Source: Fibrisoma limi BUZ 3
GTDB lineage: Bacteria; Bacteroidota; Bacteroidia; Cytophagales; Spirosomataceae
Assembly: GCF_000296815.2 (NCBI RefSeq)
Contig: NZ_CAIT01000005.1
Span: forward strand, 372,001-436,000
Reading direction: 5' to 3'
DNA length: 64,000 bases
Shown here in pieces: positions 7,541 to 62,995 of the stretch. Each line of letters opens with the position of its first letter. Within the stretch, counting starts at the first letter, position 1. A program made the translations under genes and the position numbers. The notes beneath the pieces were generated by a model. The model saw nothing but the letters and a program-made list of their open reading frames with translations, ran no database searches and was not told where the DNA came from.

Positions 7541-7617
7541 AGGGCAGGGGGAGGGGCCTGGAGCAAAGAGCCTGGAGTGCTTTTACCCCATGCCCTCTGC
7601 CCCAGGCCCTTTGCTTA
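7541..7617 (-). repeat. G-rich hairpin spacer, copy 1
   Basis: The whole gap between permeases A2 and A3 is low-complexity and self-complementary: GGGCCTGG on one side and CCAGGCCC on the other, with CTTTT in the loop region. On the minus (coding) strand positions 7609-7586 have four G-runs (GGG, GGGG, GGG, GGGG) with 3-4 nt loops, fitting the usual G-quadruplex pattern. Similar spacers lie at 10297, 13089, 54440, 57199 and 59888. Confidence 0.6.
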
Positions 7618-10296: not shown

Positions 10297-10367
10297 AAGG
10301 CTTGGGGCGAAGGGTGTGGGGCGAAGGGCCAGGAAGTTACCCCATGCCCCACGCCCCCGGCCCTTTG
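10297..10367 (-). repeat. G-rich hairpin spacer, copy 2
   Basis: The gap between permeases A1 and A2 repeats the copy 1 pattern: a G-rich half with GGGGCGAAGGG units, GTTAC in the middle, then a C-rich half. On the minus strand 10363-10340 contains four G-runs (GGG, GGGGG, GGGG, GGGG), a G-quadruplex-type pattern directly downstream of the A1 stop codon. Confidence 0.6.
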
Positions 10368-13163: not shown

Positions 13164-13502
13164 TTATCCGGTTATCAGTTGCAATGTCTGCGGAGGCAAT
13201 GAACGCCACAGTTCTTCCCGCACTTGTTTCACATCTCGTAGCGCCTTTCGACCAGCGGCCGTAACCGTAAAGAACCGTTTGCGCCGACCACCGCGCTCGG
13301 CGGTGGCACCTCCCATCTGAGAGGATAAAAAGCCCTTCTCTTCCAGGCGCTGTAGCGTGGTATGAACCGTACTGAAGCCAACGGAACGCCCGGTTTTGCG
13401 CTCGATTTCCTGCGTGACGGTGACGCCGTAAGCTTCTTCATCAAGGATGGCTACGGTTAGCATGACCACTTCTTCAAACTCTCCCAGTAAGGCTCGCTTC
13501 AT
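13164..13502 (-). CDS. PadR-family transcriptional regulator of block A
   Basis: A 112-residue winged-helix protein of the short PadR type. It starts MKRALLGEFEEVVMLTVA, matching the first residues of the two other PadR proteins in the window. The recognition region is TTLQRLEEKGFLSSQMG, followed by the basic wing GGRRKRFFTVTAAGRKAL. The longer frame from 13571 is rejected because the sigma-54-like promoter (13531-13547) lies within it and the paralogs begin at this Met. PadR proteins are usually repressors released by ligand binding. Here it heads the three-permease operon and probably controls its own transcription. It resembles the acidobacterial PadR group that sits next to duplicated orphan permeases. 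Confidence 0.9.
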   Translation of the reverse strand: MKRALLGEFEEVVMLTVAILDEEAYGVTVTQEIERKTGRSVGFSTVHTTLQRLEEKGFLSSQMGGATAERGGRRKRFFTVTAAGRKALRDVKQVREELWRSLPPQTLQLITG

Positions 13503-13530: not shown

Positions 13531-13547
13531 AACAAATGCGGTGCCAA
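13531..13547 (-). promoter_or_regulatory. Sigma-54-like -24/-12 promoter of block A
   Basis: The minus strand reads TTGGCACCGCATTTGTT. The TGGCAC at -24 is perfect, with ten bases between GG and the -12 dinucleotide, which is GT here rather than GC. The -12 element is 30 nt from the PadR ATG at 13502. It aligns with equivalents at 46823-46839 and 62879-62895. Confidence 0.65.
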
Positions 13548-13610: not shown

Positions 13611-13647
13611 TGTCCGCTTTTGGACATCGGACGTACCGAAACGGACA
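13611..13647 (-). promoter_or_regulatory. Activator-site-like dyad upstream of block A
   Basis: A dyad TGTCC-N6-GGACA lies at 13611-13626, then GTAC at 13633-13636, then a third GGACA at 13643-13647. The same parts at nearly the same spacing occur upstream of blocks C and D. The dyad starts 65 bp from the -24 GG, a typical distance for the binding site of a sigma-54 enhancer-binding protein. Confidence 0.65.
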
Positions 13648-16126: not shown

Positions 16127-16166
16127 ATTGGCCTGTTTTAAGGTTATATTTAGAAAAACTCGTGCT

Positions 16167-19001: not shown

Positions 19002-19016
19002 AAGTGTATGGGTATT

Positions 19017-19048
19017 GGGCTTGGGGGAGGGTTTGTTGCCCCAAGCCC
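19017..19048 (-). repeat. Hairpin spacer between block B permeases
   Basis: GGGCTTGGGG at 19017-19026 pairs exactly with CCCCAAGCCC at 19039-19048 across a 12-nt loop. It fills the 51-bp gap between permeases B1 and B2 and resembles the longer G-rich spacers of blocks A and D. It may act as an intercistronic stem-loop. Confidence 0.65.
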
Positions 19049-19052
19049 TGAG

Positions 19053-22653: not shown

Positions 22654-22672
22654 TGGTATCGAATGCTCTGAT

Positions 22673-23680: not shown

Positions 23681-23738
23681 GGCTTGTCAGCGCTTTCCGC
23701 AAAGGAAACCGGTTGACCCTGGTCGAAATAGAACGTAT

Positions 23739-38522: not shown

Positions 38523-38525
38523 AGG

Positions 38526-41141: not shown

Positions 41142-41144
41142 AGG

Positions 41145-43784: not shown

Positions 43785-43787
43785 AGG

Positions 43788-46472
43788 CTATTCGCTACGT
43801 AACGATTTGACCGGATTCACTAGAGCCGCTTTGATGGCCTGGAAGCTGACCGTCAGCAACGTAATGACTAAGGCACTACCACCCGCCAGGGCAAATACCC
43901 ACCACGACAATTGTGTGCGGTAGGTGTACTGCTGAAGCCAGCCGTTCAGGAAATACCAGGCAATAGGAGAGGCCACCAGAAAGGCAATGAGCACCAGCAA
44001 CACAAAGTCTTTTGACAACAGGCCCCACAGGTTCAGAACAGTAGCCCCCAGCACTTTCCGGACGCCTATTTCCTTAGTACGTTGTTCGGCCGTAAATGAA
44101 GCCAGACCAAACAGGCCCAGGCAGGAGATCAGAATGGCCAGTATGGTAAAGACCAGTGCCAGTTTGCCAATCCGCTGCTCAGCCGCGAACTTGGCCGCAA
44201 AGTCCTGGTCGACAAATGAGAACTTGAAGAGGGCCGACGGAACTATCTTCTTAATGACAGCTTCTATCTGGGGCAACGCCTGCTGTGGACTGACCTGCGG
44301 GTTGAGCCGAATGTTGAGCCGGGCTGCATCTGAATAGGTTGGGTCCAGGAAATACATACCGCGTTTCACTGGCTCAAACGGCGACTGCATAACCATATCC
44401 CTGATGACGCCGATGATCTGAAGCTTTCGTTTGCCGTCATCCATCGTAATAAACTCACCAATCGGTAGTCCGGCCGCTCCGGCGGACCGGCTGCGGTTTT
44501 TCAGGTTCAGGTATTTTGCCGCCGTTTCGTTCAGAATAACAGCCGAGGAATCGGAACGGAAGGAGCGGGAAAAGTCACGACCGGCCAGGAATTGCCAGCC
44601 TGCCAGGGCACCAAAATCGTGCGAAACATGCGTGATCGAGAAATCCGATTCGGTTTTCGGGTCTTTGTCTTTCCAGTTAAAGCCACTCATGTTATTCCAA
44701 ACGTTGGTCAGTGGGCTCGACGAAAAAGCGGTACGGACTACCATCCCCGTACGCATCAGTTCGCGTTGAATGGTTTCTTCCCGTCCCTTGTAGTTAGGGT
44801 CGTTGGTGGGGATGGACAGTAACCCTTCCCGGTTGTAGCCGACGGGTCGGTTTTGGGCGTGAATGATCTGTTTGTACACCATCGACACTCCGATTATCAG
44901 GACCACCGACACCGTAAACTGCACCACCACCAGAATTTTACGGGGGAGCGCAGCCATGTTGCCAAGCCGAAACGAGCCTTTTAAAACCTTGATCGGCTGA
45001 AACGACGACAGGTAGAAGGCCGGGTACAGACCCGACAGTAATCCCGTAAGCCCCAGAAAGGCCGCGCTGATAGACCAGAAATAGAGGTTCGACCAGGGGA
45101 AGGCGATGGCTTTGTCGGCCAGCTCATTAAACCACGACAGCGAAACCGAAACCAACAACAAAGCTCCAATAAAGGCCAGAAAGACGACCAGGAACGATTC
45201 GCTCAAAAACTGATTAATCAATTGGGATCTGAGGGAACCAATTGCTTTACGAATACCCACCTCTTTGGCGCGCTTTTCGGAACGGGCTGTGCTGAGGTTC
45301 ATGAAGTTGATACAGGCCAGCAGTAGCACAAAACCGCCAACTATGCCAAAAAGCCACACAAACGTCAGCCGGCCGGGCGCGGGTAGGCCATCTTTAAACT
45401 CTGAGTACAGATGCCATTGCTGCATAGGGTACAGATAAAGCACCATTTTGTACTTTTTCGCGTCCTCAACCATGTCTTTCGGAACGTTCTTGACGTAGAA
45501 ATCCGTCAGGGCTGCATTGGCGGTTTCCAGTGAGGTGCGATCAGCCAGTTGGACCAGCACCGAAAACGAGCTGTTATCCCAACTGTTCTCCACATTCTTG
45601 ACCCACGTGTTAGAGGAGACCCAGAGTGCCCAGGGCGCGAAAAACTCAATATGGCTGAAACTGGTATTCTCGGGTAAATCTTCGTACACCCCAGTTACCG
45701 TTACGTCCATGCGGTTGTCGATTTTCAGTGTTCGGGCGATGGGGTCTTCATCGCCAAAAATAGCTTTAGCTGTCGACTGCGATAGAATAACGGAGTGCGG
45801 GTCGTTCAGGGCGGTTTGGCTTCCTTTTAGCATCCGGAGCGAGAGCATATCGATGACATCACCCTCGATGAATTTACCCCGGCGTGTTAGTTTTTTCTCG
45901 CCCATCGAGACAGCGTAGTCGCCGTCCCAGAATCCGAGCAGAATGTGCTTGAAATTTTGACCGTAGCGGACTTTCAAGGCGGTAGCCAACGGAATCGGGT
46001 TGGCCTCGCTACCCCGGATAATACCGGTAGATGGTACTGTGCCGTAATGCCTGACTTCCGCAATGTGTTCGTAATGAGTAAAATGCGTATTGTACGATAG
46101 CTCGTCATACACCCACAGGCCAATGAGCATTGCCACCGCCATGCCTATGGCTAACCCACCAATGTTAATGACGGAGTAAGCCCGATTCTTGAGGAGATTG
46201 CGGAAGGCAATTTTTACGTAGTTGCGGATCATCGTAATTGTTGTTGATTTGGGGTGATACTTCTCTTCGCGCTTGATAAACTGAGGCTGCATCAGACTCA
46301 GTACATCGCGTAGGTAGCGCCACCGCGCCCGATGAACGCCCACCGATTTGATACGGTCCTGAAACAGTTCGTCCAGATCGCCCTCCAGCTCATCGAGCCG
46401 GTGGGGGGCGCAGAACCAGCGCAGCAGGCGCTGGGCGAAGCGAGGTGGTCTGCAAAGAGGTGCTTTGCTCAT
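43788..46472 (-). CDS. Block C permease 1: prefix-containing FtsX/MacB-type orphan permease
   Basis: The start is set at MSKAPLCRPPRFAQ (46472), because its ATG overlaps the TGA of the PadR gene as ATGA, an arrangement also seen in block D; the longer frame to 46502 would lie inside padR. The protein has 894 residues: block C prefix, body from MIRNYVKIAFRNLLKNRAYS, first span GMAVAMLIGLWVYDELSYN, FtsX motifs KEVGIRKAIGSLRSQ and KEIGVRKVLGATVLN. It has an insertion (NRSRSAGAAGLPIG) near residue 690 not seen in its relatives. As the first permease after PadR it is probably translationally coupled to the regulator. Confidence 0.9.
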   Translation of the reverse strand: MSKAPLCRPPRFAQRLLRWFCAPHRLDELEGDLDELFQDRIKSVGVHRARWRYLRDVLSLMQPQFIKREEKYHPKSTTITMIRNYVKIAFRNLLKNRAYSVINIGGLAIGMAVAMLIGLWVYDELSYNTHFTHYEHIAEVRHYGTVPSTGIIRGSEANPIPLATALKVRYGQNFKHILLGFWDGDYAVSMGEKKLTRRGKFIEGDVIDMLSLRMLKGSQTALNDPHSVILSQSTAKAIFGDEDPIARTLKIDNRMDVTVTGVYEDLPENTSFSHIEFFAPWALWVSSNTWVKNVENSWDNSSFSVLVQLADRTSLETANAALTDFYVKNVPKDMVEDAKKYKMVLYLYPMQQWHLYSEFKDGLPAPGRLTFVWLFGIVGGFVLLLACINFMNLSTARSEKRAKEVGIRKAIGSLRSQLINQFLSESFLVVFLAFIGALLLVSVSLSWFNELADKAIAFPWSNLYFWSISAAFLGLTGLLSGLYPAFYLSSFQPIKVLKGSFRLGNMAALPRKILVVVQFTVSVVLIIGVSMVYKQIIHAQNRPVGYNREGLLSIPTNDPNYKGREETIQRELMRTGMVVRTAFSSSPLTNVWNNMSGFNWKDKDPKTESDFSITHVSHDFGALAGWQFLAGRDFSRSFRSDSSAVILNETAAKYLNLKNRSRSAGAAGLPIGEFITMDDGKRKLQIIGVIRDMVMQSPFEPVKRGMYFLDPTYSDAARLNIRLNPQVSPQQALPQIEAVIKKIVPSALFKFSFVDQDFAAKFAAEQRIGKLALVFTILAILISCLGLFGLASFTAEQRTKEIGVRKVLGATVLNLWGLLSKDFVLLVLIAFLVASPIAWYFLNGWLQQYTYRTQLSWWVFALAGGSALVITLLTVSFQAIKAALVNPVKSLRSE

Positions 46473-46795
46473 GACCAGGCGGTTCGGGGAATAGCGTCCC
46501 ACATCTGATTACGCAGTTGCCGAACCTCCTCCAATACCCGTCGTCCGTAGGCCGTTACCGAATACAGCCGCTTCCGGCGACCACCCCGTTCGGGCGAGAT
46601 ACCACCCATCTCCGATTTGACCAGCCCTTTTTCCTGGAGCCGATGCAGGGCTGAGTGTACCGCGCCCAGATTGACCGAGCGCCCCATTTGCTGCTCAATC
46701 TCGTTGACGACGGCAGCCCCGTAGGCGTCGCCGTCCCGGATCGCTACGGCCAGTAGCACCACCTCTTCGAACTCGCCTAAGTAAGTCCCCTTCAT
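46469..46795 (-). CDS. PadR-family transcriptional regulator of block C
   Basis: A 108-residue winged-helix regulator starting MKGTYLGEFEEVVLLAVAIRDGDAYGAAV, similar to the other two PadR proteins. The recognition helix region is SALHRLQEKGLVKSEMG and the wing is GGRRKRLYSVTAYGRRVL. It heads the four-permease operon and overlaps the first permease by 4 nt (ATGA). Upstream are a sigma-54-like promoter (46823-46839), a terminator-like hairpin and an activator-like dyad (46905-46941). It is expected to act as an autoregulatory repressor; the ligand is unknown. Confidence 0.92.
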   Translation of the reverse strand: MKGTYLGEFEEVVLLAVAIRDGDAYGAAVVNEIEQQMGRSVNLGAVHSALHRLQEKGLVKSEMGGISPERGGRRKRLYSVTAYGRRVLEEVRQLRNQMWDAIPRTAWS

Positions 46796-46822
46796 GATAC
46801 TGTATTAGTTGTGTAAATGTAT

Positions 46823-46839
46823 AACAAATGCCTTGCCAG
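46823..46839 (-). promoter_or_regulatory. Sigma-54-like -24/-12 promoter of block C
   Basis: The minus strand reads CTGGCAAGGCATTTGTT: TGGCA at -24 and TTTGT at -12 with the standard ten-base interval (GT instead of GC at -12). The -12 element is 29 nt from the PadR ATG. It shares GCATTTGTT with the block A promoter. Confidence 0.6.
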
Positions 46840-46904: not shown

Positions 46905-46941
46905 TGTCCAGAAACGGACAGTTTTTGTACGCTGGTGGACA
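46905..46941 (-). promoter_or_regulatory. Activator-site-like dyad upstream of block C
   Basis: TGTCC-N6-GGACA at 46905-46920, GTAC at 46927-46930 and a third GGACA at 46937-46941. The element spacing is identical to block A (dyad to third half-site, 32 bp), and the dyad is 110 bp from the PadR start codon. Confidence 0.65.
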
Positions 46942-51769: not shown

Positions 51770-54439
51770 TTACTCGCTACGTAGGGACTTCACCGGGTTC
51801 ATCAGGGCGGCTTTGATGCTTTGGTAACTGACGGTTAGCAAAGCAATGATCAGGGCTAACAGGCCAGCGACGGCAAATACCCACCAATCGAGGTCAATCT
51901 TGTAGGCAAAGTCCTGCAGCCACAGATTCATTGCCCACCAGGCCAGAGGAGAGGCCACGATGATAGCGATCAACACCAGCTTGAGGAAGTCTTTTGACAA
52001 CAGCGCCACAACACTGACCACCGTAGCGCCCAGTACTTTGCGAACGCCAATCTCTTTGGTTCGTTGTTCAGTAGTGAAAGTTGTCAGAGCAAACAGCCCC
52101 AGGCAGGCAATGAAAATGGCGATGCCGGCGAATAAGCTGACCAGGGTAGAAACGCGTTGTTCGGTCTGGTACTGACGGTTGAAATCTTCGTCCAAAAAGT
52201 AATAATCGAAGTCATAACCCGGAAACCGACGTTGCCAGAACTGTTCAATCTGGGCAACTGAAGCGTGTACGTCGCCCGCACCCAAACGAATAGCCAGATA
52301 GCGATAGGTATAGGCCGGGGTAATGAACGTAAGGATTGGCGTAATCTTCTGTTGCAGACCGTGCTGATGGAAGTCTTTGATAACGCCCACCACCTGGCCG
52401 TTCTCCAGCCCGGGGGTACCTATGCTCTTGCCAACGGCTTCGGCTGGCTTCCAGCCAATGGCCTTACAGGCGGCTTCGTTCAGCAAAACGGCATGACCGG
52501 CGTCCGTGGTAAACTGGGTTGAGTAGTCGCGGCCGTTGCGAATGGCCAGACCCAACGTTTTTACGTAGTCGTGATCAACCGGAATGACTTCGAGCGAAAA
52601 GGCCTGCTCCCGCGGTCGCCCCTGTGGGTAAACCATCTGGCCGTTCCATCCATCGCGGCCGGGCAGCGCCGATACACCCGTTACGGCCTGCACATTTGGT
52701 AAAGATGCTACCTGTTGCTTGATTGACTCGTAATTATTGATAAAATCGAGCCGGGGCAGCTTTCGTAACTCCACTGTCAACACGCGTTCTTTGGTAAAGC
52801 CCAGCTCCTGGCTTTGCATGAAGCGCAGTTGACGAACCACTACGATGGTGCCGACGATCAGACTTAGGGAAATGGAGAATTGAAATACTACTAATCCCTG
52901 GCGCAGCCATGCCCCTTTGGCTCTGGCGTGTTGTCCTTTCAGGGTCTCAACCGGTCGAAACCTGGCGAGCACGAGGGCCGGGTACCAGCCCGCGAGCAGG
53001 CCCGTCAGCAGTAGAAAAACAAAACTCAGCCCGATCGTAACAGGATGAAACAAGGTGGTCAGCGGGATGGCTTTGCCGGTCAGGTTGTTCAGCAAAGGGA
53101 GAGCTGCTGCCATGATCAGGATGGCCAGAAAACCGGCTAAGTAAGCCAGCATCAAGGATTCGCCCAGGAACTGCCCAATCAGCGACGAGTAAGCCGCGCC
53201 GATGGCCTTTCGAATGCCTACTTCTTTGGCTCGTTGCCCTTGATAGGATGTGGTCAGATTGACGAAGTTGATACCCGCCAGCAAGAGCAGAAACAAGCCG
53301 ATGAGACCTACTACGTAAAGCTGCTTAGCGCTGCCGTACGACCGGTTGTTAGCCCCGCCCATATCAGGCATTCCAAACGAATGCAGGTAAATCCAGGGAA
53401 GAGGTTCCAGCGAATGTGTTACGTAGATGCCGTTGTTGCGGTACTCCTGGCCGTTGTGTTTCATCGGCAAGGCGGCAATTTTCTTTTCTGCTGCCACCGG
53501 GTCGGCCCGCTCCGGAAGCAGCACGTAGCAGTACTCATCCCAGGTAAACCATTGTCCGTCTTTTTTGCCTTCCAGGGCGTAGAACGTTGGCAGGGACAAC
53601 AGCAGGTTGAAGTCGATATGCGATGGTTGTGGGTCTGCCGTAACGCCCGTTATCTTAAACGGTAACGTATCCTGCAACATCAATGTCCTTCCCAGCACAG
53701 CCGTAGTTCCGAAGTATTTCCGGGCGGTACTTTCCGTCAGAACGACCGCGTAAGGATCTCGTAACGCCGTTTTAGGGTCGCCTTCAATCAGCGGAAATGA
53801 GAAGGTAGTCAGGAAATCGTTGCTGACAAATAACTCCTTGTCGAAGAAATACCGGTTGTTATGCCTGATGGATAAGTTAGCCCGCCGTACCGGAATGACG
53901 GCCTCCACATCGGGCACTTCCTGCCGAATAGCTTCCGCCACGGGACGGCCCACCGTATTGGAAGCCATCGTTGCTGCTCCCTTCTCGACGGTGTTGGTCA
54001 CTACGCGGTAAATGCGATCGCCTTTTTCGTGGAAACGATCGACCCGCCACTCATCAACGATGTACAGGGCAATTAGCCCGCAGGCTGCTAAGCCAACCGA
54101 CAAGCCCGACAGGTTGGTAAAGGTGTATACCTTGTTTTTGACCAGCGAACGAATCGCGACTTTTACGTAATTCTGTATCATGGTAAAAGTTGATGGATTT
54201 GGATACTCACTCTTCTCACGCCTGATCACATACGGCCTGACAAAGCCCAGCACATCGCGCCAGTACCGCCACCGCGCCCGACGTTCGCCAACCCGCTCCA
54301 CCTGGTAAGCAAACTCCTCGTGCAGGTCACCTTGCAGGGTTTCCAGCAAGTGTGGAGCCACGAACCATTCTAACAAGCGGTCGGCTAAGCGCGGAGGGGT
54401 TGGGCGGTCCGGCGATCCGGCGTTGGGCTTGGGGGGCAT
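51770..54439 (-). CDS. Block D permease 4: prefix-containing FtsX/MacB-type orphan permease
   Basis: An 889-residue permease, the last gene of block D. The prefix (residues ~15-75) is the block D type: PPRLADRLLEWFVAPHLLETLQGDLHEEF and GERRARWRYWRDVLGFVRPYV. The body starts at MIQNYVKVAIRSLVKNKVYT with a first span containing GLAACGLIALYIVDEWRVD. FtsX motifs are KEVGIRKAIGAA and KEIGVRKVLGATVVS. The AIRSL in place of AFRNL or AWRNL in the first amphipathic helix is unusual for the family. The end of the operon is marked by a hairpin 30 bp downstream. Confidence 0.9.
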   Translation of the reverse strand: MPPKPNAGSPDRPTPPRLADRLLEWFVAPHLLETLQGDLHEEFAYQVERVGERRARWRYWRDVLGFVRPYVIRREKSEYPNPSTFTMIQNYVKVAIRSLVKNKVYTFTNLSGLSVGLAACGLIALYIVDEWRVDRFHEKGDRIYRVVTNTVEKGAATMASNTVGRPVAEAIRQEVPDVEAVIPVRRANLSIRHNNRYFFDKELFVSNDFLTTFSFPLIEGDPKTALRDPYAVVLTESTARKYFGTTAVLGRTLMLQDTLPFKITGVTADPQPSHIDFNLLLSLPTFYALEGKKDGQWFTWDEYCYVLLPERADPVAAEKKIAALPMKHNGQEYRNNGIYVTHSLEPLPWIYLHSFGMPDMGGANNRSYGSAKQLYVVGLIGLFLLLLAGINFVNLTTSYQGQRAKEVGIRKAIGAAYSSLIGQFLGESLMLAYLAGFLAILIMAAALPLLNNLTGKAIPLTTLFHPVTIGLSFVFLLLTGLLAGWYPALVLARFRPVETLKGQHARAKGAWLRQGLVVFQFSISLSLIVGTIVVVRQLRFMQSQELGFTKERVLTVELRKLPRLDFINNYESIKQQVASLPNVQAVTGVSALPGRDGWNGQMVYPQGRPREQAFSLEVIPVDHDYVKTLGLAIRNGRDYSTQFTTDAGHAVLLNEAACKAIGWKPAEAVGKSIGTPGLENGQVVGVIKDFHQHGLQQKITPILTFITPAYTYRYLAIRLGAGDVHASVAQIEQFWQRRFPGYDFDYYFLDEDFNRQYQTEQRVSTLVSLFAGIAIFIACLGLFALTTFTTEQRTKEIGVRKVLGATVVSVVALLSKDFLKLVLIAIIVASPLAWWAMNLWLQDFAYKIDLDWWVFAVAGLLALIIALLTVSYQSIKAALMNPVKSLRSE

Positions 54440-54516
54440 AGCGTTGGGGTTGGGGCTTAGGGCGCAGAGCCGGGCTTGGTGTTACCCTTCGGCCCACGCC
54501 CCCGGCTCCATGCGAT
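54440..54516 (-). repeat. G-rich hairpin spacer, copy 4
   Basis: The gap between D3 and D4 contains the family spacer: GGGGTTGGGGCTTAGGGCGCAGAGCCGGG, then GTTACCC, then a C-rich half CCCACGCCCCCGGCTCC. It is longer in G-runs on the plus strand than on the minus strand. Confidence 0.55.
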
Positions 54517-57198
54517 TTACTCACTACGTAGGGACTTTACGGGGTTCGTCAGGGCGGCTTTCGCACTTTGCAGGCTGACCGTTAACAAAGCCACCAGCAG
54601 GGCCAGCAGACCCCCCAGCGCGAATATCCACCAATCAATAGTAACCTTATACGCGAAGGCTTGCAGCCAGCGGTTCATCGCATACCAGGCAATGGGTGAG
54701 GCAATGACGATGGCGATCAGCACCAGTTTCAAAAAGTCTTTGGAAAGCAGCGCTACTACGCTGGCCACCGACGCACCGAGCACTTTACGAATGCCAATTT
54801 CTTTTTGACGTTGCTCGGTCGACAGGGCCGCCATGCCTAATAATCCCATGCAGGAAATTAAAATGCTTAGCCCCGAAAACAGCAGCATAAACTGCAATGA
54901 CTTCTGGTCCTTGCGGTAAAGCTTATCGAATTCTTCATCCATGAAGGAGTAAAAAAGGGGCAGTTTAGGAAACATCGTTTTGAATGAAGTCAAGGTCAGG
55001 TTCAGAGCCGTAATGGCTTGTCCTGGCTGACTCTCAATCAGAAAAGAAGTCCTGTTGGGCGAGTTCGCCCGGATCACGACCGGGCCGATCCGCTCATGTA
55101 CCTTCTGGTAATAGAAATCCTTTACGACGCCAATGACAATCCCATTATTAAAGCGTTTGCCGATTACGGGCTCACTCAGTCCAAATTGTCTGACGGCCGT
55201 TTCGTTAAGCACAATGTTGTCTTTGTCCGAAGTAATCGTTTTATCAAACCAGCGCCCTCGTATTAATTTGAACTTCGTAATCTCATTAAGGTCCATATCG
55301 GCCCCATAGTCAACGTAAGCTGGTTGAAAGGCGGGATCACGACCATCCCAATCGATACCGCCTGATGTGGTGTATCCATGATTGACGACGGACTCTTCAT
55401 TCATCCGAACTACGTGTCTGATGGGGGCTTGGGCTACCAAATGCTGTTTCAACGCGATCAGACGTGACTCTAACAGGGAATCGTACGCTAGTCTATCCGC
55501 AAAGCTGGAAATGGTAGGGTGTTCGTCGGGCACTTGAATGGTCAGCAGTTGACTCCGGTTATAAGCGTTGTGTTGCTGCTGCATGAACACAACCTGCCGG
55601 TACACGACAATTACCCCGATCACCATGACTACAGTGATGCTGAATTGCACCGTAATCAATCCTTTACGAATGGACGTGTTTTTAACCTGAAACAGTCCGG
55701 CTCCCCGAAACAGATTGAGGGGATTAATGGAAGAGAGCAGCAAAGCGGGATAGACGCTAATGAGCAGTAACGTAACTACCCATGTTCCAAGCAGCAGTTT
55801 CCAAATGTGCCATTCGGTCAGATCAAGGGTAAATTGCTTGTCGGTGAAGGTGTTGAACGCCGGAAGGCAAACGTTGGCCAGCAAGACGGACAGTACAATG
55901 GCAATCAGGCTGATCAACACCGATTCGGTCATGATCTGGCTGAACAACTGGCCACGATTAGCGCCAACGATCTTTCGAATGCCGATTTCTTTGGAACGTA
56001 TCCCGGTTCTGGCAATGGATAAATTTACGTAGTTGACGCAGGCGCTCACCAACAACGCCAGCGCCAGCAGTGTGAAGATATTAACGTTCCGGGCTTCTGT
56101 GTGCTCGAAAGCTGTTATGTCGAAGTTTGTCTGAAAATGGAGCGCCTGTAGAGGAAGCAGGGCCGGGGTTAAGTCATCTTCATCTCGGTTGGCTTTGTAA
56201 AGAGCGGCAACGGCCTGTGCTGTCCGGGTTGGATCAGCCGAAGGGCGCAGCCTGACGAACGTTTTATGAGTGGCATACAGCCAGGTGTTGGCTTCCTGCA
56301 ACCGACGGGCTGTATTGAGCCTGGCCGAGAGGGGAATGAGTACGTTGAACTGCAGGCTGGAATTAACCGGATTGTCTTTGACCACCGCTCGAACTACGTA
56401 GTCGGTTGAATCGATACGTACATGGTTTCCCGCAACGTCTACTTTACCAAAGAGCTGTTTTGCTTTTGACTGCGTTAGTAGGAGGCTGTACGGGTGGGCC
56501 AGAAAAGATTGCCAACTGCCTTGCAGAACGTCGTAATGAAACATCTTAAACCAGTTCTGGTCCACATAGGCGGTGTATTCTTCGACAAAGTAATTGTCGT
56601 TTACCTTCAGCGTTACATCATTCTTGAAGGACCTTTGCATGTGCGTTACCAACTCAACCTGGGGTAGCTTTTGAACCATGGAGGCCGCCAGTGGGTAAGG
56701 ACTATTTTCGCCAATGACGTTCTGCGCAATACCTGACTGGTGCTGGTTCGTTACCAGAAAAATACGGTCGGCGGCTGGGTGATAGCTATCAAACCGCAAC
56801 TCGTTCTGCACCCACATCATGATCAGCAAGGCCGCCGTTATGGCTACGGATAAGCTACCAATACTGAGCGTACTGTGTAGCTTTTGATTGACGCTATTGC
56901 GCCAGGCGATTTTGAAATAATTGCGAATCATGGTCGGGTTTAGAAAAAAGGGACTGGGGTATTCATTCGGTTTACGGGTAATGACATACGGCCTGACAAA
57001 GCCCAGCACATCGCGCCAGTAGCGCCACCGCGCCCGGCGTTCACCCACGCGCTCGACCTGGTAAGCAAACTCCTCGTGCAGGTCGCCCTGCAGGGTTTCC
57101 AGCAAGTGGGGAGCCACAAACCATTCCAGCAGTCGGTCGGCGAGGTGCGGTGGGCGTGGGGCAGAGGGCTTGGGGTTAGTGCTCATGGCGTTGGGCAT
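54517..57198 (-). CDS. Block D permease 3: prefix-containing FtsX/MacB-type orphan permease
   Basis: An 893-residue permease. The start MPNAMSTNPK may be read from either Met; the paralog D2 has lost the first ATG. The prefix (PHLADRLLEWFVAPHLLETLQGDLHEEF) is the block D type. The body MIRNYFKIAWRNSVNQKLHSTLS is the most divergent of the set; the first span (ITAALLIMMWVQNELRFD) and periplasmic domain differ. FtsX motifs are KEIGIRKIVGAN and KEIGIRKVLGAS, and the chain ends in NPVKSLRSE. Its distinct periplasmic part suggests a different ligand from D1, D2 and D4. Confidence 0.9.
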   Translation of the reverse strand: MPNAMSTNPKPSAPRPPHLADRLLEWFVAPHLLETLQGDLHEEFAYQVERVGERRARWRYWRDVLGFVRPYVITRKPNEYPSPFFLNPTMIRNYFKIAWRNSVNQKLHSTLSIGSLSVAITAALLIMMWVQNELRFDSYHPAADRIFLVTNQHQSGIAQNVIGENSPYPLAASMVQKLPQVELVTHMQRSFKNDVTLKVNDNYFVEEYTAYVDQNWFKMFHYDVLQGSWQSFLAHPYSLLLTQSKAKQLFGKVDVAGNHVRIDSTDYVVRAVVKDNPVNSSLQFNVLIPLSARLNTARRLQEANTWLYATHKTFVRLRPSADPTRTAQAVAALYKANRDEDDLTPALLPLQALHFQTNFDITAFEHTEARNVNIFTLLALALLVSACVNYVNLSIARTGIRSKEIGIRKIVGANRGQLFSQIMTESVLISLIAIVLSVLLANVCLPAFNTFTDKQFTLDLTEWHIWKLLLGTWVVTLLLISVYPALLLSSINPLNLFRGAGLFQVKNTSIRKGLITVQFSITVVMVIGVIVVYRQVVFMQQQHNAYNRSQLLTIQVPDEHPTISSFADRLAYDSLLESRLIALKQHLVAQAPIRHVVRMNEESVVNHGYTTSGGIDWDGRDPAFQPAYVDYGADMDLNEITKFKLIRGRWFDKTITSDKDNIVLNETAVRQFGLSEPVIGKRFNNGIVIGVVKDFYYQKVHERIGPVVIRANSPNRTSFLIESQPGQAITALNLTLTSFKTMFPKLPLFYSFMDEEFDKLYRKDQKSLQFMLLFSGLSILISCMGLLGMAALSTEQRQKEIGIRKVLGASVASVVALLSKDFLKLVLIAIVIASPIAWYAMNRWLQAFAYKVTIDWWIFALGGLLALLVALLTVSLQSAKAALTNPVKSLRSE

Positions 57199-57256
57199 AG
57201 GGCGAGGAGCTGGGCTTGGTGTTACCCTTCACCCCACGCCCCCGGCCCCATGCGAT
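57199..57256 (-). repeat. G-rich hairpin spacer, copy 5
   Basis: The gap between D2 and D3 has the family pattern; minus-strand 57249-57225 gives four G-runs (GGGG, GGGGG, GGGG, GGG) with loops CC, CGT and TGAA, a strong G-quadruplex-type motif a few bases after the D2 stop codon. Confidence 0.6.
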
Positions 57257-59887
57257 TTACTCACTACGTAGGGACTTGACTGGATTCATCAGAGCCGCTT
57301 TGATGCTTTGGAAGCTGACCGTTAAAAGCGTGATGAGTAATGCACCAGCGCCCGTTGCGGCAAAAATCCACCACGAAATAGTTGAGCGATACGGGTACTG
57401 CTGAAGCCAGTCATTCATAAAGTAATAGGCCAATGGGGAAGCGATCAGCAATGATATGAGTACGAGTATGATAAAGTCTTTGGAGAGGAGTTGCCATAGT
57501 GTAAAGACCGATGCGCCTAATACTTTCCGGACGCCGATCTCCTTGGTACGTTGCTCGGCCGTGAAGGACGCCAGACCGAACAATCCCAGACAGGAGATGA
57601 AGATTGCCAGGATAGCGAAAACGGTCGATAACTGGCCGATACGCTCCTCAGTACGAAATTTCTGGTCGTATTCGTCGCTGGCAAATTTGTAGTCGAACGG
57701 ACTACCCGGGTTGTATTTGCGAAAAACGGGCTCGATCCGATTCAACGCTTCGCCAGCACTCAGTTGTGGGTTCAGTTTAACGAGGATCAAGTTGGCCCAG
57801 TCGTAGTCCAGCAGGAAAACGGTTGGCTTAACCGGCTCAAAGGGCGAACTCATAACCACGTCTTTTACTACGCCGATGATAGAATAAATCTTGCCGTTCC
57901 ACTGAACATACTCGCTAATCGGGTTTTTAAAACCCATAAATTTTACGGCCTTTTCATTGACGATTATGCCGAGGGAATCGGTCGCAAAATCGCGTGAAAA
58001 GTCACGGCCCTGCTTGAACTGCCAACCCACTGTCCGGCCGTAATCATGCGTAACGGCAACCGTTCCAAAATCACCGATCTGATTGTGCGCTTTGCCTTTC
58101 CAGTTAAAACTTGCGTCCGTCGCCCACAAATCGGTGGTTGGGCTCGATGTTTCAGCCATGTTTACGGCAGCATCAGTACGCATCAGTTCGTTACGGATTG
58201 CGTCATAATGACCGTAAAAATCCGGGGTATTCATTAACACAGTGAGCAGCCCACTTCGGTCGTACCCAACCGGGCGATCTTTGGCGTGTTGAATCTGACG
58301 AAAAACGATAATCGTACCAATGATGATTGTGATCGATACCGTGAATTGTACAACAACCAACGCTTTACGGGGAGTAGCCGCCGATCGCCCAACGCGAATG
58401 GTTCCTTTCAATACTTTAATTGGCTGGAAAGAAGATAGATAGAAAGCTGGATAACTACCGGCAATAAAACCCGTTAGTAAACTCAGGCCTAAGCAGATAC
58501 TCCAAAGCACCGGATTAGTCCACGGAATAGCTGTTTTTTTGTCGGCGATCTCGTTAAACCACGGCAGTGAGAGTTGAACAAGCAACAACGACAGCGACAA
58601 CGCAAGTAGGACCACCAGAAACGACTCGCTAAAAAACTGATTGACAAGCTGACTTCGTAATGAACCAACTGCCTTACGAATACCAACTTCTTTAGCGCGT
58701 TTCTCTGAACGAGCAGTACTTAAATTCATGAAGTTGATACAGGCCAGCAGTAGCACGAATACACCGATGGTTCCAAAAAGCCAGACGAATTGAATGCGCC
58801 CCCGAAGCAACACACCATTCTCCCAATCCGAATACAGGTGCCAGCGGGACATGGGGTGGAGTATCTCGGTGGGATTGAATCTGGCTTCGTCTTTGGCATG
58901 TCGGGCTTTTATCTTACTAATTTTTGCCGAAACGCGCTCAAAATCTGTGTTCGGAGCAATCTCGACAAACAGTTGAAATGAGTTGTTGCCCCAGTTATTC
59001 TCTGAACGTTTCACCCAGGGCTGATCGACCAGATATTGTTGCCACGAAAGCAGAAACGTGACCAGCCTGAATTCAGTGTTGTAAGGGAAGTCTTCATAAA
59101 CGCCTGTCACTTTAACGAACTGCTTATTATTTACTTTGATGATTTTGTTGATCGGATCAGCAGTGCCAAAAAGCGCATTAGCTACCGATTCCGATAGTAG
59201 AATAGAAGCCGGGTCGTCCAGCCCATTCTGACTCCCTTTCACCATTTTCAAGGGAAGCATTTGGGTGAACTCGGACTCAACGTAGTTTCCCGTTTTGGTG
59301 AACTTATTACCTCCATTAGCGAGAATGTACTCCTGTGTCCAGGACGAGAGTGCCAGATGGGTAAAATCACTGCTATGTTCGTTTTGTAGGGCGGCCCGGA
59401 GGGGAATAGCAATAGCATTCGATGTAAAGGTTGTTCCGTTTGCAGTTTGCTGTTCGATTACTCTGGCAATCCGGCTGTAGTTCGCGTAGTAGTTGTCAAA
59501 CGATAGTTCATCGTAAATCCACAAACCAATCAGCATAGCCACGGCCATACCAGTCGCTAATCCACCAATATTGATTGCAGAATAACCTTTGTGCCTGACC
59601 AGATTCCGAAAAGCGACTTTGAGATAATTGCGGAGCATAGTACTGTTGTTTGGCGTTGAATACTCGTTCGGTTGACGCTTGATGACATACGGCCTGACAA
59701 AGCCCAGCACATCGCGCCAGTAGCGCCACCGCGCCCGGCGCTCACCTACGCGCTCGACCTGGTACGCAAACTCCTCGTGCAGGTCACCCTGCAGGGTTTC
59801 CAGCAAGTGCGGAGCCACGAACCATGCCAGCAGGTGGTCGGCGAGGTGCGGTGGGCGTGGGGCAGAGGGCTTGGGGTTAGTGCTCAT
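57257..59887 (-). CDS. Block D permease 2: block D prefix with a block C-like body
   Basis: The start is set at MSTNPKPSAPRPPHLADHLL (59887); the frame to 59965 runs into the preceding gene and lacks the ATG seen in D3. The protein has 876 residues. The prefix is block D type (LLETLQGDLHEEF), but the body MLRNYLKVAFRNLVRHKGYS with GMAVAMLIGLWIYDELSFD and KEVGIRKAVGSLRSQ matches block C permeases C1, C2 and C4 far better than its own block. The second module has KEIGVRKVLGASVFT. It is therefore a mosaic, explained by recombination between blocks or by prefix replacement. Confidence 0.9.
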   Translation of the reverse strand: MSTNPKPSAPRPPHLADHLLAWFVAPHLLETLQGDLHEEFAYQVERVGERRARWRYWRDVLGFVRPYVIKRQPNEYSTPNNSTMLRNYLKVAFRNLVRHKGYSAINIGGLATGMAVAMLIGLWIYDELSFDNYYANYSRIARVIEQQTANGTTFTSNAIAIPLRAALQNEHSSDFTHLALSSWTQEYILANGGNKFTKTGNYVESEFTQMLPLKMVKGSQNGLDDPASILLSESVANALFGTADPINKIIKVNNKQFVKVTGVYEDFPYNTEFRLVTFLLSWQQYLVDQPWVKRSENNWGNNSFQLFVEIAPNTDFERVSAKISKIKARHAKDEARFNPTEILHPMSRWHLYSDWENGVLLRGRIQFVWLFGTIGVFVLLLACINFMNLSTARSEKRAKEVGIRKAVGSLRSQLVNQFFSESFLVVLLALSLSLLLVQLSLPWFNEIADKKTAIPWTNPVLWSICLGLSLLTGFIAGSYPAFYLSSFQPIKVLKGTIRVGRSAATPRKALVVVQFTVSITIIIGTIIVFRQIQHAKDRPVGYDRSGLLTVLMNTPDFYGHYDAIRNELMRTDAAVNMAETSSPTTDLWATDASFNWKGKAHNQIGDFGTVAVTHDYGRTVGWQFKQGRDFSRDFATDSLGIIVNEKAVKFMGFKNPISEYVQWNGKIYSIIGVVKDVVMSSPFEPVKPTVFLLDYDWANLILVKLNPQLSAGEALNRIEPVFRKYNPGSPFDYKFASDEYDQKFRTEERIGQLSTVFAILAIFISCLGLFGLASFTAEQRTKEIGVRKVLGASVFTLWQLLSKDFIILVLISLLIASPLAYYFMNDWLQQYPYRSTISWWIFAATGAGALLITLLTVSFQSIKAALMNPVKSLRSE

Positions 59888-59957
59888 GGCGTTGGGCTTA
59901 GGGCGCAGAGCCGGGCCTGGTGTTACCCTTCGCCCCACGCCCCCGGCCCCATGCGAT
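59888..59957 (-). repeat. G-rich hairpin spacer, copy 6
   Basis: The gap between D1 and D2 carries GGGCTTAGGGCGCAGAGCCGGGCC, GTTACCC and a C-rich half. Minus-strand 59950-59926 reads GGGG-CC-GGGGG-CGT-GGGG-CGAA-GGG, again a four-run G-quadruplex-type motif. Confidence 0.6.
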
Positions 59958-62516
59958 TTATTCACTACGTAATGATTTGACGGGATTCATCAACGCGGCT
60001 TTGATGGCTTGTGAACTGACCGTCATCAGGGCAATCCCCACTGCCAGTAAACCTGCTACGGCAAACATCCACCATTCGATGTTGATGCGGTAGGTGAAGT
60101 TTTGTAGCCATTGGCTCATGGCGTACCAGGCAAGCGGGGTCGCGATAACGATGGCGATTAGCACCAGCTTCAGGAAGTCTTTCGACAAGAGCGCAATAAC
60201 GTTGGGTACGGATGCGCCGAGCACTTTCCGGATGCCGATTTCCTTGGTACGTTGCTCCGCAGTAAAGGCCGCCAAACCAAACAAACCCAGGCATGAGATG
60301 AGGATGGCCAGCAGACCAAAGTAATTTGTGAGCGTATTGACCAGTGTTTCGCTCCGATAGAGTTTTTCGTATGCCTCATCTAAAAAATGGTAGGTAAACG
60401 GATAGCTTGGATTAAGCCGGTGAGCCGTCTGCTCGACTACCTGTAGGGCTTCCGCTGTTTTTCCGGGTGCCGTTTTTATCAGGAAGTCATTGGTCCATTT
60501 CGGGTAATAGGTAAGCACCAGGGGCCGAATGGGTTCATGCAGTGAGCTGATATGAAAATCGTTCATGATCCCGATAATACGGCCCTTCCCGCGCGAGAAC
60601 ATGATTTCCATGCCAAGTGGATTTTTTAGGTTCATCATTTTAACCGCCGACTCATTTACGATGTAGCTGTTGGTATCGGAAGGGCTGAAATCATGCCCAG
60701 CGATGAATTTAATTCCCAGTGTTTTGGCAAAATCAAGGCCTACTTTCATCGTATTGACGGAAGCATTCAGGTTGGGGTCTTTGCCCGCCCAATTCAGGAC
60801 GTTTGTGCTCCCGATATGAATGGGAAGCTCACCTGTCGAGGTCACCGAACTGATGGTATTCGAGCGCTGCAACTCCTGTCTGAACGTTTCCATCTTTGGG
60901 AGCAGCTCTCCTTCTACGGGTATGTAAATGAGGTTCTGACGGTCAAGACCAAGCTGCTTTGTCCGGACGTAGTCCATCTGCCGGCCAATGATCAGCATGC
61001 CGACGATTAAAAACAGCGACAGCGAAAACTGAAACACGACCAATGATTTGCGGAATGCAGCGCCGGATGCGACATTAGTGAAAGCGCCCTTCAGGACCCT
61101 GACCGGCTGCATGGCGGATAAAAACAAGGCTGGATAGCTCCCCGCCACCAAACTCGTACCGACAACGAGCGTAATCACATACAACCACAGAGTTGGGGAT
61201 GAGAAATCAAGGGCTAAGGGCTTACCAACAAGTTCATTGATCGTCGGTAAAAGACATAGAGTCAAGCCAATGGCTGCTGAGGCAGACAGCAAACTCAAGA
61301 GCGTTGATTCACCAATGAACTGCCCTACCAGCGACAGACGCCCGGCACCTACCACTTTTCGGACACCTATTTCTTTTGCCCGCAGTGATGAACGGGCGGT
61401 GGCTAAATTCATGAAGTTGACGCAGGCAATCAGCAGGATAAGCAGAGCGATCAGACTAAAGGATTTTACGTAGCTGATACGTCCGCCAACGGCTTTGCCA
61501 TTTTCATAATTGCCATACAAATACGTATCGGCAATGGGTTGAAGGACAGGGACCTCCTTTGTGTCGGGCAGATAACGCTTTACTAGCGTACGCATGCTGG
61601 CTTCGGCCTGGGCATGAGTCGTATTCGGCTTCAACTTTATGTAGTTGAGAAACGAGCGGCTTTGCCAACCTTTCATCCAGTCTTCTTCGGCTACTTTGAA
61701 ATTTACCAGCCAGTTAAACTGAATGGAGGAGTTGTGAGGGATATTTTCAATGACGGCGCCGACCCTATAATACTTATCATTATTGAGTTGGAGCGTCTTT
61801 CCTACAGCCTCCGTTGTGCCGAAAAGTGTCTCGGCAATACTTCGCGTAATGACGATGGCGTTGGGCGACTGAATCGCGACGCGCGGATTACCCTGCAACA
61901 CCGGATATTGGAAAATATCGAAGAAGTCTTCCGTTACATAATTGCCCTCTTTTTTGCTGAACCGCTGGCCTGCTTTGAGCAGAAAATCGTTACTCCATAC
62001 CGTAAACTTGGTTGCCTTGTCTACCTGTGGTACGTCTTTCTTCAGCGCTTCGGCCAGTGAGCCGGGCATGATTTCTCCGGTATTGATACCATCTGTAAGC
62101 CGAACAAAATAGATGCGTTCGGCGTCCTTATACCCTTTGTTAAAGCTTAATTCATCATTTACCCATAAGCCAATCAGCAGGCTACAGGTCATGCCGAGCG
62201 ACAGACCAAAGATGTTAATCAGGCTTAACAGGCGATTATGCTGTAAGCTTCGCCAAGCGATTTTGACGTAATTCTGTAACATAACAGGGCTTACTAGTGA
62301 GGGGGTTATATATTCTGAAGGTTTACGTTTGATCACATACGGCCTGACAAAGCCCAGCACATCGCGCCAATACCGCCACCTGGCCCGTTGCTCACCCACG
62401 CGTTCGACCTGGTAGACGAACTCCTCGTGCAGGTCGCCCTGCAGGGTTTCCAGCCGGTGTGGAGCTACGAACCATGCCAGCAGTCGGTCGGCGAGTTTCG
62501 GGGGCCTAGGGGTCAT
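59958..62516 (-). CDS. Block D permease 1: prefix-containing FtsX/MacB-type orphan permease
   Basis: An 852-residue permease that starts MTPRPPKLADRLLAWFVAPHRLETLQGDLHEEF; the ATG overlaps the TGA of the PadR gene as ATGA. The prefix covers residues ~5-65 (GEQRARWRYWRDVLGFV). The body starts MLQNYVKIAWRSLQHNRLLSLI, with GMTCSLLIGLWVNDELSFN as first span, KEIGVRKVVGAG and KEIGIRKVLGASVPN as FtsX motifs, and the last hairpin NFTYRINIEWWMFAV. It is probably translationally coupled to PadR and controlled by the sigma-54-like promoter at 62879-62895. The cargo and ATPase are unknown. Confidence 0.9.
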   Translation of the reverse strand: MTPRPPKLADRLLAWFVAPHRLETLQGDLHEEFVYQVERVGEQRARWRYWRDVLGFVRPYVIKRKPSEYITPSLVSPVMLQNYVKIAWRSLQHNRLLSLINIFGLSLGMTCSLLIGLWVNDELSFNKGYKDAERIYFVRLTDGINTGEIMPGSLAEALKKDVPQVDKATKFTVWSNDFLLKAGQRFSKKEGNYVTEDFFDIFQYPVLQGNPRVAIQSPNAIVITRSIAETLFGTTEAVGKTLQLNNDKYYRVGAVIENIPHNSSIQFNWLVNFKVAEEDWMKGWQSRSFLNYIKLKPNTTHAQAEASMRTLVKRYLPDTKEVPVLQPIADTYLYGNYENGKAVGGRISYVKSFSLIALLILLIACVNFMNLATARSSLRAKEIGVRKVVGAGRLSLVGQFIGESTLLSLLSASAAIGLTLCLLPTINELVGKPLALDFSSPTLWLYVITLVVGTSLVAGSYPALFLSAMQPVRVLKGAFTNVASGAAFRKSLVVFQFSLSLFLIVGMLIIGRQMDYVRTKQLGLDRQNLIYIPVEGELLPKMETFRQELQRSNTISSVTSTGELPIHIGSTNVLNWAGKDPNLNASVNTMKVGLDFAKTLGIKFIAGHDFSPSDTNSYIVNESAVKMMNLKNPLGMEIMFSRGKGRIIGIMNDFHISSLHEPIRPLVLTYYPKWTNDFLIKTAPGKTAEALQVVEQTAHRLNPSYPFTYHFLDEAYEKLYRSETLVNTLTNYFGLLAILISCLGLFGLAAFTAEQRTKEIGIRKVLGASVPNVIALLSKDFLKLVLIAIVIATPLAWYAMSQWLQNFTYRINIEWWMFAVAGLLAVGIALMTVSSQAIKAALMNPVKSLRSE

Positions 62517-62851
62517 AAGTTAATGGCGAGTTTGGGGGTAGGGGGCACCTCGTTCCACAACTGCGCCCGCATTGCCTTGATGTCCTGCAACGTCCGGTAG
62601 CCGTAGGCCGTTACGGTAAACAGCAGCTTTCGCCGGCCACCGCGCTCGGGCGTGGGATCGCCCATCCGCGATGCCACCATGCCTTTCTCCTGCAACCTAT
62701 GCAGGGCTGCGTGTACCTGGTTGAGCCGTACTGATCGGTCAGTTTCTTCGTTCAGCTTATGGGTGATTCCCACGCCGTACGCTTCGCCATCCATACCCGC
62801 CACCAGCAGCAGCACGATCTCTTCAAACTCGCCTAAGTAGGTTCGTTTCAT
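62513..62851 (-). CDS. PadR-family transcriptional regulator of block D
   Basis: A 112-residue winged-helix protein starting MKRTYLGEFEEIVLLLVAGMDGEAYGVGI. The recognition region is AALHRLQEKGMVASRMG and the wing is GGRRKLLFTVTAYGYRTL. It heads the block D operon and overlaps the first permease by 4 nt. The upstream region contains a sigma-54-like promoter with the canonical GC at -12, an overlapping AT-rich palindrome that could be a PadR operator, and an activator-like dyad at 62958-62995. Confidence 0.92.
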   Translation of the reverse strand: MKRTYLGEFEEIVLLLVAGMDGEAYGVGITHKLNEETDRSVRLNQVHAALHRLQEKGMVASRMGDPTPERGGRRKLLFTVTAYGYRTLQDIKAMRAQLWNEVPPTPKLAINL

Positions 62852-62863
62852 AGCCTGGAATTA

Positions 62864-62890
62864 AATCTATTTTTGCTGAGCAAATAGATT
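62864..62890 (-). promoter_or_regulatory. AT-rich palindrome over the block D transcription start (candidate PadR operator)
   Basis: AATCTATTT (62864-62872) and AAATAGATT (62882-62890) are exact complements with a 9-nt spacer. The element covers the -12 region and expected start site, where a repressor would block the promoter. Confidence 0.5.
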
Positions 62891-62895
62891 GCCAA
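62879..62895 (-). promoter_or_regulatory. Sigma-54-type -24/-12 promoter of block D
   Basis: The minus strand reads TTGGCAATCTATTTGCT, with GG and GC separated by ten bases, matching the consensus TTGGCA-N6-TTGCT. The -12 GC is 29 nt upstream of the PadR ATG at 62851. Confidence 0.75.
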
Positions 62896-62957
62896 CAAAG
62901 AAGAACCGCTTCGTACGTTTCAGAACGGGCGTTTTATTGAAATAGGCCGATGCAAAA

Positions 62958-62995
62958 TGTCCGTTACCGGACACGTAAACGTACGCTTCAGGACA
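62958..62995 (-). promoter_or_regulatory. Activator-site-like dyad upstream of block D
   Basis: TGTCCG-TTAC-CGGACA at 62958-62973 is a perfect dyad, followed by GTAC at 62981-62984 and GGACA at 62991-62995. Spacing to the third half-site is 33 bp, one more than in blocks A and C. The dyad lies 65 bp from the -24 GG. Confidence 0.7.

Follow-up and report, generated by a model that had tools for sequence, protein, structure and literature searches.

Predicted sigma-54 enhancer control and apparent local PadR locks at permease operons of Fibrisoma limi BUZ 3

The window analysed here, a stretch of 64,000 nucleotides from Fibrisoma limi BUZ 3, holds three operons on the minus strand (blocks A, C and D) in which a PadR gene comes first and MacB_PCD/FtsX permease genes follow. 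A preliminary description of this DNA, made from the letters alone, had placed a sigma-54-like promoter in front of each operon and pointed out that such a promoter together with a PadR repressor would be an unusual two-layer switch. This raises the question of whether the sites are sigma-54 promoters at all, and if so, which activator would serve them and where the PadR proteins would act.

Sigma-54-like sites in the window and the genome

Direct reading of the sequence gave the following sites.

13531..13547, minus strand, sigma-54 -24/-12 site of block A, TTGGCACCGCATTTGTT
46823..46839, minus strand, sigma-54 -24/-12 site of block C, CTGGCAAGGCATTTGTT
62879..62895, minus strand, sigma-54 -24/-12 site of block D, TTGGCAATCTATTTGCT

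All three stand where the preliminary description had put them and with the bases it gave, and A, C and D share the TGGCA -24 element and the ten-base spacing (GG-N10-G) reported for them. As claimed, D has GC for its -12 dinucleotide while A and C have GT, and the distance of 29-30 nt from the -12 element to PadR also holds, as we count 30 nt (A), 29 nt (C) and 29 nt (D) from the second base of the dinucleotide to the A of the ATG (13502, 46795 and 62851, respectively). The same description had proposed looking for rpoN and for further PadR-permease operons with the motif. We found one copy of rpoN (Sigma54_DBD, E 5e-55), and the motif precedes nine of the ten PadR genes of this type in the genome and, when scored by a matrix, 52 of 80 relatives' loci. 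The rpoN product contains ARRTVAKYR, which we take to be the RpoN-box motif. As a discriminating test the presence of rpoN was rejected, since 379 of 390 genomes of the order carry it, including all 46 genomes with the composite pattern described below.

The pattern [CT]TGGC[AT]N5TTTG has five matches on both strands of the 64-kb window, and three of these are the sites of blocks A, C and D. Thirteen proteins of the genome match PF03551, and ten of them begin with LGEFEE. Ahead of the start codon of nine of the ten LGEFEE-type genes we found YTGGCW-N5-TTTG with GG-N10-G; the -12 dinucleotide is GT at six sites, GA at two and GC at only one (block D), with the G present in all nine. No sigma-54 site was seen at the tenth gene (L013), which encodes 95 aa, shorter than the others, and has a permease remnant downstream, nor at the three unrelated, non-LGEFEE PadR genes of the same genome. 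At the sequence level the sigma-54 interpretation is thus supported.

Sigma-54 control of FtsX-type COG0577 permeases in Bacteroidia has been predicted before by Carrera-Reyna et al. 2025 (PMC12316311), in a passage that calls it the first evidence for the FtsX family. The prediction concerns the same permease class as here, also in Bacteroidota. The main text of that paper does not use the word PadR, and its passages on these permeases name no enhancer sequence, activator or repressor layer, unlike the present analysis. The sigma-54 regulon of Flavobacterium psychrophilum provides -24/-12 promoters with transcript-start evidence in the phylum (PMC9723704), and the targets in the selection shown there comprise chaperones as well as gliding, exported and other proteins, with no PadR-permease operon among them. 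In the main text of PMC3162934 no word begins with Bacteroid, Cytophaga, ABC, permease, TGTCC or PadR. Our search covered the CC-licensed PMC literature, closed-access papers being outside its scope, and among the matches listed we recognised none on sigma-54/PadR control of permeases. What looks new is the combination of sigma-54 enhancer control with apparent local PadR locks.

PadR genes and the block after the -12 element

The PadR genes, the putative operators and the permeases of the three blocks are as follows.

13164..13502, minus strand, PadR gene of block A, 112 aa, PF03551 at 42.7 bits
46469..46795, minus strand, PadR gene of block C, 108 aa, PF03551 at 47.2 bits
62513..62851, minus strand, PadR gene of block D, 112 aa, PF03551 at 33.2 bits
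13509..13532, minus strand, putative PadR operator of block A, 24 nt after the -13 G, proposed from co-variation with the PadR subfamily
46801..46824, minus strand, putative PadR operator of block C, proposed from the same co-variation
62857..62880, minus strand, putative PadR operator of block D, proposed from the same co-variation
4865..13088, minus strand, three MacB_PCD/FtsX ADOP-like permeases of block A (10368-13088, 7618-10296 and 4865-7540)
35910..46502, minus strand, four ADOP-like permeases of block C (870, 871, 879 and 904 aa)
51770..62516, minus strand, four ADOP-like permeases of block D (889, 893, 902 and 852 aa)

All three PadR proteins score above the PF03551 gathering score of 27. 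The mechanical ORF start of PadR A, 13571, lies upstream of the promoter, and alignment with the paralogues favours 13502. In ADOP systems (TIGR03434, with padR_acidobact, TIGR03433) a duplicated MacB/FtsX permease is found beside a PadR gene, and the operon has no ATPase; the blocks described here share this layout of duplicated permease, PadR gene and missing ATPase. Against TIGR03434 the five permeases tested score 285-328 bits where the cut-off is 622.3, and against TIGR03433 the three PadRs score 26-42 where it is 101.8; they are related to ADOP and padR_acidobact, and are not members of these families by the NCBI cut-off. Permease prefix domain 2 is present in all four PadR-block permeases tested, including the first of block A.

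To locate a possible PadR layer we compared the proteins with different parts of their promoters. In Mantel comparisons over 57 of 94 sites (left after an 85% identity cut, with sub-threshold loci removed beforehand, and 19 of them retrieved with the composite pattern, in which an exact palindrome at 45-75 bp is a fixed requirement), PadR identity correlates with the 24 nt after the -13 G at r 0.559 (P 0.0005, 0 of 2000 permutations as high), with the spacer upstream of the -24 element at r 0.085 (P 0.025) and with the enhancer described in the next section at r 0.068 (P 0.063). The 24-nt block ends ahead of the start codon, and PadR subfamilies share their blocks across genera: PadRs with a VGF-type helix typically have (A/T)TCG(A/G)CATTATC, RLNQ PadRs a CAGCAAAAATAGA-like block and TFGTVH PadRs a ACGAYAAAATAKAAACTAAT-like one. 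Because the block after the -12 element tracks the PadR subfamily, while spacer and enhancer hardly do so, private PadR operators are suggested, and a private operator over the start region seems the simplest reading.

The same correlation would arise from shared descent of the paralogous promoters, with no PadR binding involved, as more similar PadRs belong to more recently separated loci and the spacer too correlates weakly. However, for pairs with 65-75% PadR identity the identity of the block is 0.66, whereas that of the spacer, at 0.35, stays at the level of the lower-identity pairs (0.34-0.36), and we find it rather unlikely that descent accounts for the co-variation. With their matching blocks under one common type of promoter, the PadR subfamilies also offer a natural series in which to work out how PadR proteins recognise DNA.

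Upstream palindromes and the candidate activator RR47

Farther upstream, each of the three promoters carries two copies of a palindrome, which we list as predicted enhancer elements.

13611..13626, minus strand, proximal enhancer palindrome of block A, TGTCCAAAAGCGGACA, 79 bp before the -24 Y
13632..13647, minus strand, distal degenerate copy of block A, TGTCCGTTTCGGTACG, 2 mismatches, 21 bp from the proximal one
46905..46920, minus strand, proximal enhancer palindrome of block C, TGTCCGTTTCTGGACA, 81 bp before the -24 Y
46926..46941, minus strand, distal copy of block C, TGTCCACCAGCGTACA, 1 mismatch, 21 bp from the proximal one
62958..62973, minus strand, proximal enhancer palindrome of block D, TGTCCGGTAACGGACA, 78 bp before the -24 Y
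62980..62995, minus strand, distal degenerate copy of block D, TGTCCTGAAGCGTACG, 2 mismatches, 22 bp from the proximal one

Enhancers and activator are absent from the preliminary description, though the pair of block D falls within the interval it dealt with (62851-62995).

The 16-bp palindrome TGTCC-N6-GGACA is present upstream of all nine promoters of the genome, exact at seven and with one mismatch (TGTAC) at two, and its start is separated from the -24 element by 67-69 or 78-81 bp. At eight of the nine a second, more degenerate copy lies 21-22 bp farther out; at L012 no second copy was found within two mismatches. The exact palindrome occurs at eight places in the 7.63-Mb genome, seven at PadR operons and the eighth ahead of a small protein in a permease array. 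It should be noted that the reversed control of the bare palindrome is equally frequent, with eight places genome-wide, and the weight of the palindrome therefore lies in its locations. Among the 57 non-redundant PadR promoters, 56 have a best palindrome matching at least 8 of 10 positions, and 54 of these 56 palindromes are found at -67 to -69, -77 to -81 or -88 to -90, which corresponds to a periodicity of roughly 10.5-11 bp. The helical phasing of the positions is R 0.83 (n=56, 56 of the 57 promoters, related loci being treated as independent). For the second copy the most raised upstream offset is 21 bp, with a mean of 5.35 of 10 matches against 1.5-3.5 at other offsets.

Paired and phased upstream sites are the layout expected of an activator that loops to the sigma-54 polymerase, as in NtrC-type systems, and the best reading of the palindrome pair is a predicted NtrC-type enhancer. 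At the enhancer of L049 TTGGCA is present, with no -12 element at the right spacing. A relaxed search of the F. limi genome (eight matches against one for the control) also returned C9:1131370 and C10:638778, which lie inside long open frames and were treated as chance.

The genome contains eleven strong and four weak Sigma54_activat matches. We draw attention to RR47, a response regulator of 472 aa (C11:897532-898947) with a receiver (PF00072), a Sigma54_activat AAA+ domain (PF00158) and a Fis-type HTH (PF02954), all above cut-off. A histidine kinase gene adjoins RR47, and the operon divergent from RR47 encodes a membrane-fusion protein, the ABC ATPase ATP47 (225 aa) and a permease; the promoter of this operon carries CGTCCGAAAGCGGACA and TTGGCACGACTATTGGG. 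In 15 of 17 RR47 neighbourhoods the interval separating RR47 from the exporter genes contains the palindrome with no more than one mismatch, and the two neighbourhoods lacking it (both of genus g4) have no exporter genes nearby either. In Runella genomes RR47 and PadR-permease operons carrying this enhancer stand together in a single array. Of the 46 composite genomes, 45 have an RR47 match (E <= 1e-130), as opposed to 248 among all 390, a comparison confounded with kinship. As 203 genomes have an RR47 match and no exact composite, the presence of RR47 alone is weak evidence; one composite genome (G223) gave no RR47 match.

The loop of RR47 reads GAFTDA where the exact motif would be GAFTGA, as is the case for 29 of 30 orthologue loci and for the paralogue RR45, so that we class RR47 as NtrC-type by its domain make-up only, with a variant loop. 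GAFTDA is counted among the loop variants expected to retain activity in the relevant passage of PMC4641369, while sigma-54 was not recovered in a pull-down with a GAFTDA protein in PMC10714721, where the passage on this result leaves the effect of the G to D change open. From its domains and its neighbourhood we infer that RR47 most likely binds the shared TGTCC-N6-GGACA enhancer.

With eleven strong activator matches in the genome, another protein could bind the enhancer, and the sigma-54 and enhancer parts of the reading would stand with one of the ten other enhancer-binding proteins as activator. The paralogue RR45 would be an example: it is 46% identical to RR47 with the same domains, it adjoins an exporter promoter of sigma-54-like type, and in two f12 genomes (L064 and L065) the RR45-type operon carries TGTCC-N6-GGACA. 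In F. limi itself, however, the palindrome of the RR45 exporter operon (L045, about 890-1002) is another one, TGTGCGATTTCGCACA, which is partly repeated upstream and accompanied by TTGGCACATCATTTGG, whereas it is the RR47 neighbourhoods that carry the PadR-type palindrome (15/17 genomes). We regard an activator other than RR47 as improbable. Because the palindrome of the RR45 operon differs, RR45 and RR47 may form a specificity pair.

Relatives, the proposed switch and the permease family

The relatives' loci are the best 80 of 544 confirmed ones, picked by conserved PadR peptides. In these 80 of 544 the strict pattern occurs at N10 in 31 loci (shuffled 0.2) and at N7, N8, N9, N11, N12 and N13 in 0, 1, 2, 0, 0 and 0, respectively; the looser TGG...TTG is found in 45 of the 80 at N10 and in 1-6 at the six other spacings (shuffled 2.4). 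All shuffles, also those of the matrix and housekeeping tests, preserve base content and not dinucleotides. A matrix built from the nine F. limi sites matches 52 of the best 80 loci against 12 of 336 control ORF upstreams from the same loci, a control rate somewhat above the 1% threshold. By group, assigned by hand from genus names, the placing of genera in Spirosomaceae being our own, the matrix matches 42 of 50 loci in Spirosomaceae genera, five of seven in unplaced Cytophagales MAGs and five of 23 elsewhere (best 80 of 544).

All eight misses in the Spirosomaceae genera are Dyadobacter loci, and 18 of the 23 loci elsewhere (the seven MAGs counted apart) have no sigma-54 site. In five Dyadobacter loci (L104, L117, L125, L144 and L145) the -24 element lies one base nearer to TTT (GG-N9), the G after TTT being present in three and missing in two. 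Five of the 52 matrix matches (L122, L127, L134, L142 and L154) have TTTT and lack the -12 G; one of these comes from a MAG and the other four from Runella, which contributes five loci in all. One further match (L110) is without the GG. The Runella loci L127, L134, L142 and L154 keep TTGGCA or CTGGCA and have ATTTTAT at the -12 position in place of ATTTGNT. By these counts the sigma-54 layer belongs mainly to one family-level group. PadR-permease operons without this layer occur in relatives such as Roseivirga, where five loci with no sigma-54 site (L123, L133, L140, L148 and L164) have repeated ACTAAT/ACTAAA-type blocks before PadR; these are perhaps ancestral operators.

The distribution also bears on whether the housekeeping sigma factor could read the operons, with TTTG as part of the Bacteroidota promoter and TGGCA incidental. 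TTTG does belong to the housekeeping -7 box of the phylum, TAnnTTTG, in the part of PMC9723704 that treats it, the sigma-54 site is missing from most loci outside the Spirosomaceae genera, and TAnnTTTG is slightly above shuffles both in loci with the sigma-54 site (5/61 vs 2.8) and in loci without it (5/28 vs 1.9). Yet the box lies within 120 nt of PadR in only five of the 61 sigma-54-site loci, TTTG-N17..23-TAnnTTTG is found in one of the 61, and a housekeeping promoter would leave the conserved GG, the strict N10 and the phased palindromes unexplained. With so little support from the TAnnTTTG counts near PadR we consider it highly improbable, and keep to the sigma-54 promoter.

We searched the 390 genomes for a composite of the palindrome, 45-75 bp and TGGCAN5TTTG, which gave 156 matches in 46 genomes (six in F. 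limi) against one match of the reversed pattern. Not all composite counts in other genomes are PadR operons: the 30 loci listed comprise 19 PadR-first, five permease-first, two MFP-first, one ATPase-first and three unassigned units, and 20 further hand-picked loci comprise 13 PadR-first, six permease-first and one ATPase-first. That TGTCC-N6-GGACA is the PadR operator and no enhancer is hardly credible and was rejected by the Mantel contrast and the non-PadR-first units, for although the element is palindromic and upstream of the nine F. limi promoters, it does not follow the PadR subfamily (r 0.068, P 0.06, against r 0.559 for the block after the -12 element), it also heads units without PadR first (11 permease-first, two MFP-first and two ATPase-first of 70 loci) and is present in the RR47/exporter region, and its helical phasing to the promoter fits looping activation.

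Promoter spacing, enhancer copies, phasing, rpoN, activator domains, enhancer conservation at RR47 loci and PadR/operator co-variation are all computed results, to which the switch that we propose adds RR47-enhancer binding, PadR repression and the signals, which we infer. Judged on sequence, it is probable that the operons have a sigma-54 licence in common, given by an enhancer-bound activator (most likely RR47), and a local PadR lock on each. The sigma-54 promoter of each PadR-permease operon would need an NtrC-type activator on TGTCC-N6-GGACA sites, as a rule two in tandem, about 70-80 bp upstream, and the same enhancer would serve nine PadR operons and the ABC exporter operon of membrane-fusion protein, ATP47 and permease. 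RR47, partnered by the adjoining histidine kinase, would most likely be the protein that binds it; a signal would act on the kinase, phosphorylated RR47 would promote the sigma-54 open complex, and the operons would be licensed together. Each PadR, on its own block just 3' of the -12 element, would keep its operon blocked until displaced by its own ligand or state, the net logic being global activation AND local de-repression. The two-layer switch foreseen in the preliminary description is in this way backed by the shared palindrome pair and the subfamily-specific start-region sequence, repression by PadR itself being presumed. The shared phased enhancer with its probable cognate regulator is a stronger finding than the promoter observation it started from. 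If the proposal is true, the cell could license an exporter family at once and release its members one by one from nine scattered operons.

The proposed switch resembles sigma-54/NtrC-family systems in the -24 TGGCA, GG-N10-G, rpoN, an activator of receiver-AAA-Fis type and the paired phased palindromes; it differs from them in that the -12 dinucleotide is mostly GT or GA, the loop is GAFTDA and the targets are scattered PadR-permease operons.

In Spirosoma-type genomes we noticed a second composite class, consisting of the palindrome, a TGATAATCA-like box and then a TTGGCACA-type or TTGGCACAnCCTTTGG-like site. It was found at 18 Spirosoma-type g3 loci (L196 and L198-L214), out of a set of 20 hand-picked for a secreted-protein look, before small proteins that appear secreted by eye and have MLPLMSKVAASLLLSASTLxNPTTPK-like starts. 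The TGATAATCA-like box may bend the DNA in an IHF-like manner, and RR45 may be the activator of this class.

The genome has 56 ADOP-like permease matches above 200 bits, 27 of them on C11:807-893 kb, 24 on C10 and five elsewhere; the best TIGR03434 score is 345.9 bits, below the cut-off of 622.3, which leaves all of them outside ADOP proper. ATP47-type ATPases at E <= 1e-40 number only eight, and ATP47 is 77.7-98.7% identical in 12 of 16 other-genome RR47 neighbourhoods, those with a match. Gene numbers and shared control lead us to the hypothesis that one ATPase serves many permeases. Further, we speculate, tentatively, that one two-component system, acting via the enhancer and sigma-54, licenses much of a 56-permease orphan family that borrows ATP47, and that the private PadRs choose which permeases are powered. 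ADOP-like permeases occur as large arrays that lack an ATPase of their own; as the shared enhancer would tie these permeases to one kinase/regulator pair and one ATPase, the questions of which ATPase and which signal drive them become directly testable.

The 27 matches of C11 fill 85 kb (C11:807592-892909) on one strand, running up to the RR47/ATP47 exporter operon, and none of the 13 PF03551 matches falls within this stretch. In the window, 13712-21410 encodes three ADOP-like permeases (784-804 aa) with no PadR gene alongside. Upstream of them, near 21410, a search for the palindrome that allowed up to one mismatch found none, and the permease at 13712-16126 gave no prefix-domain match. Next to them, at 21505-24596, lie genes for a chromate transporter, a DUF1259 protein and a ChrB_C-AraC-type protein.
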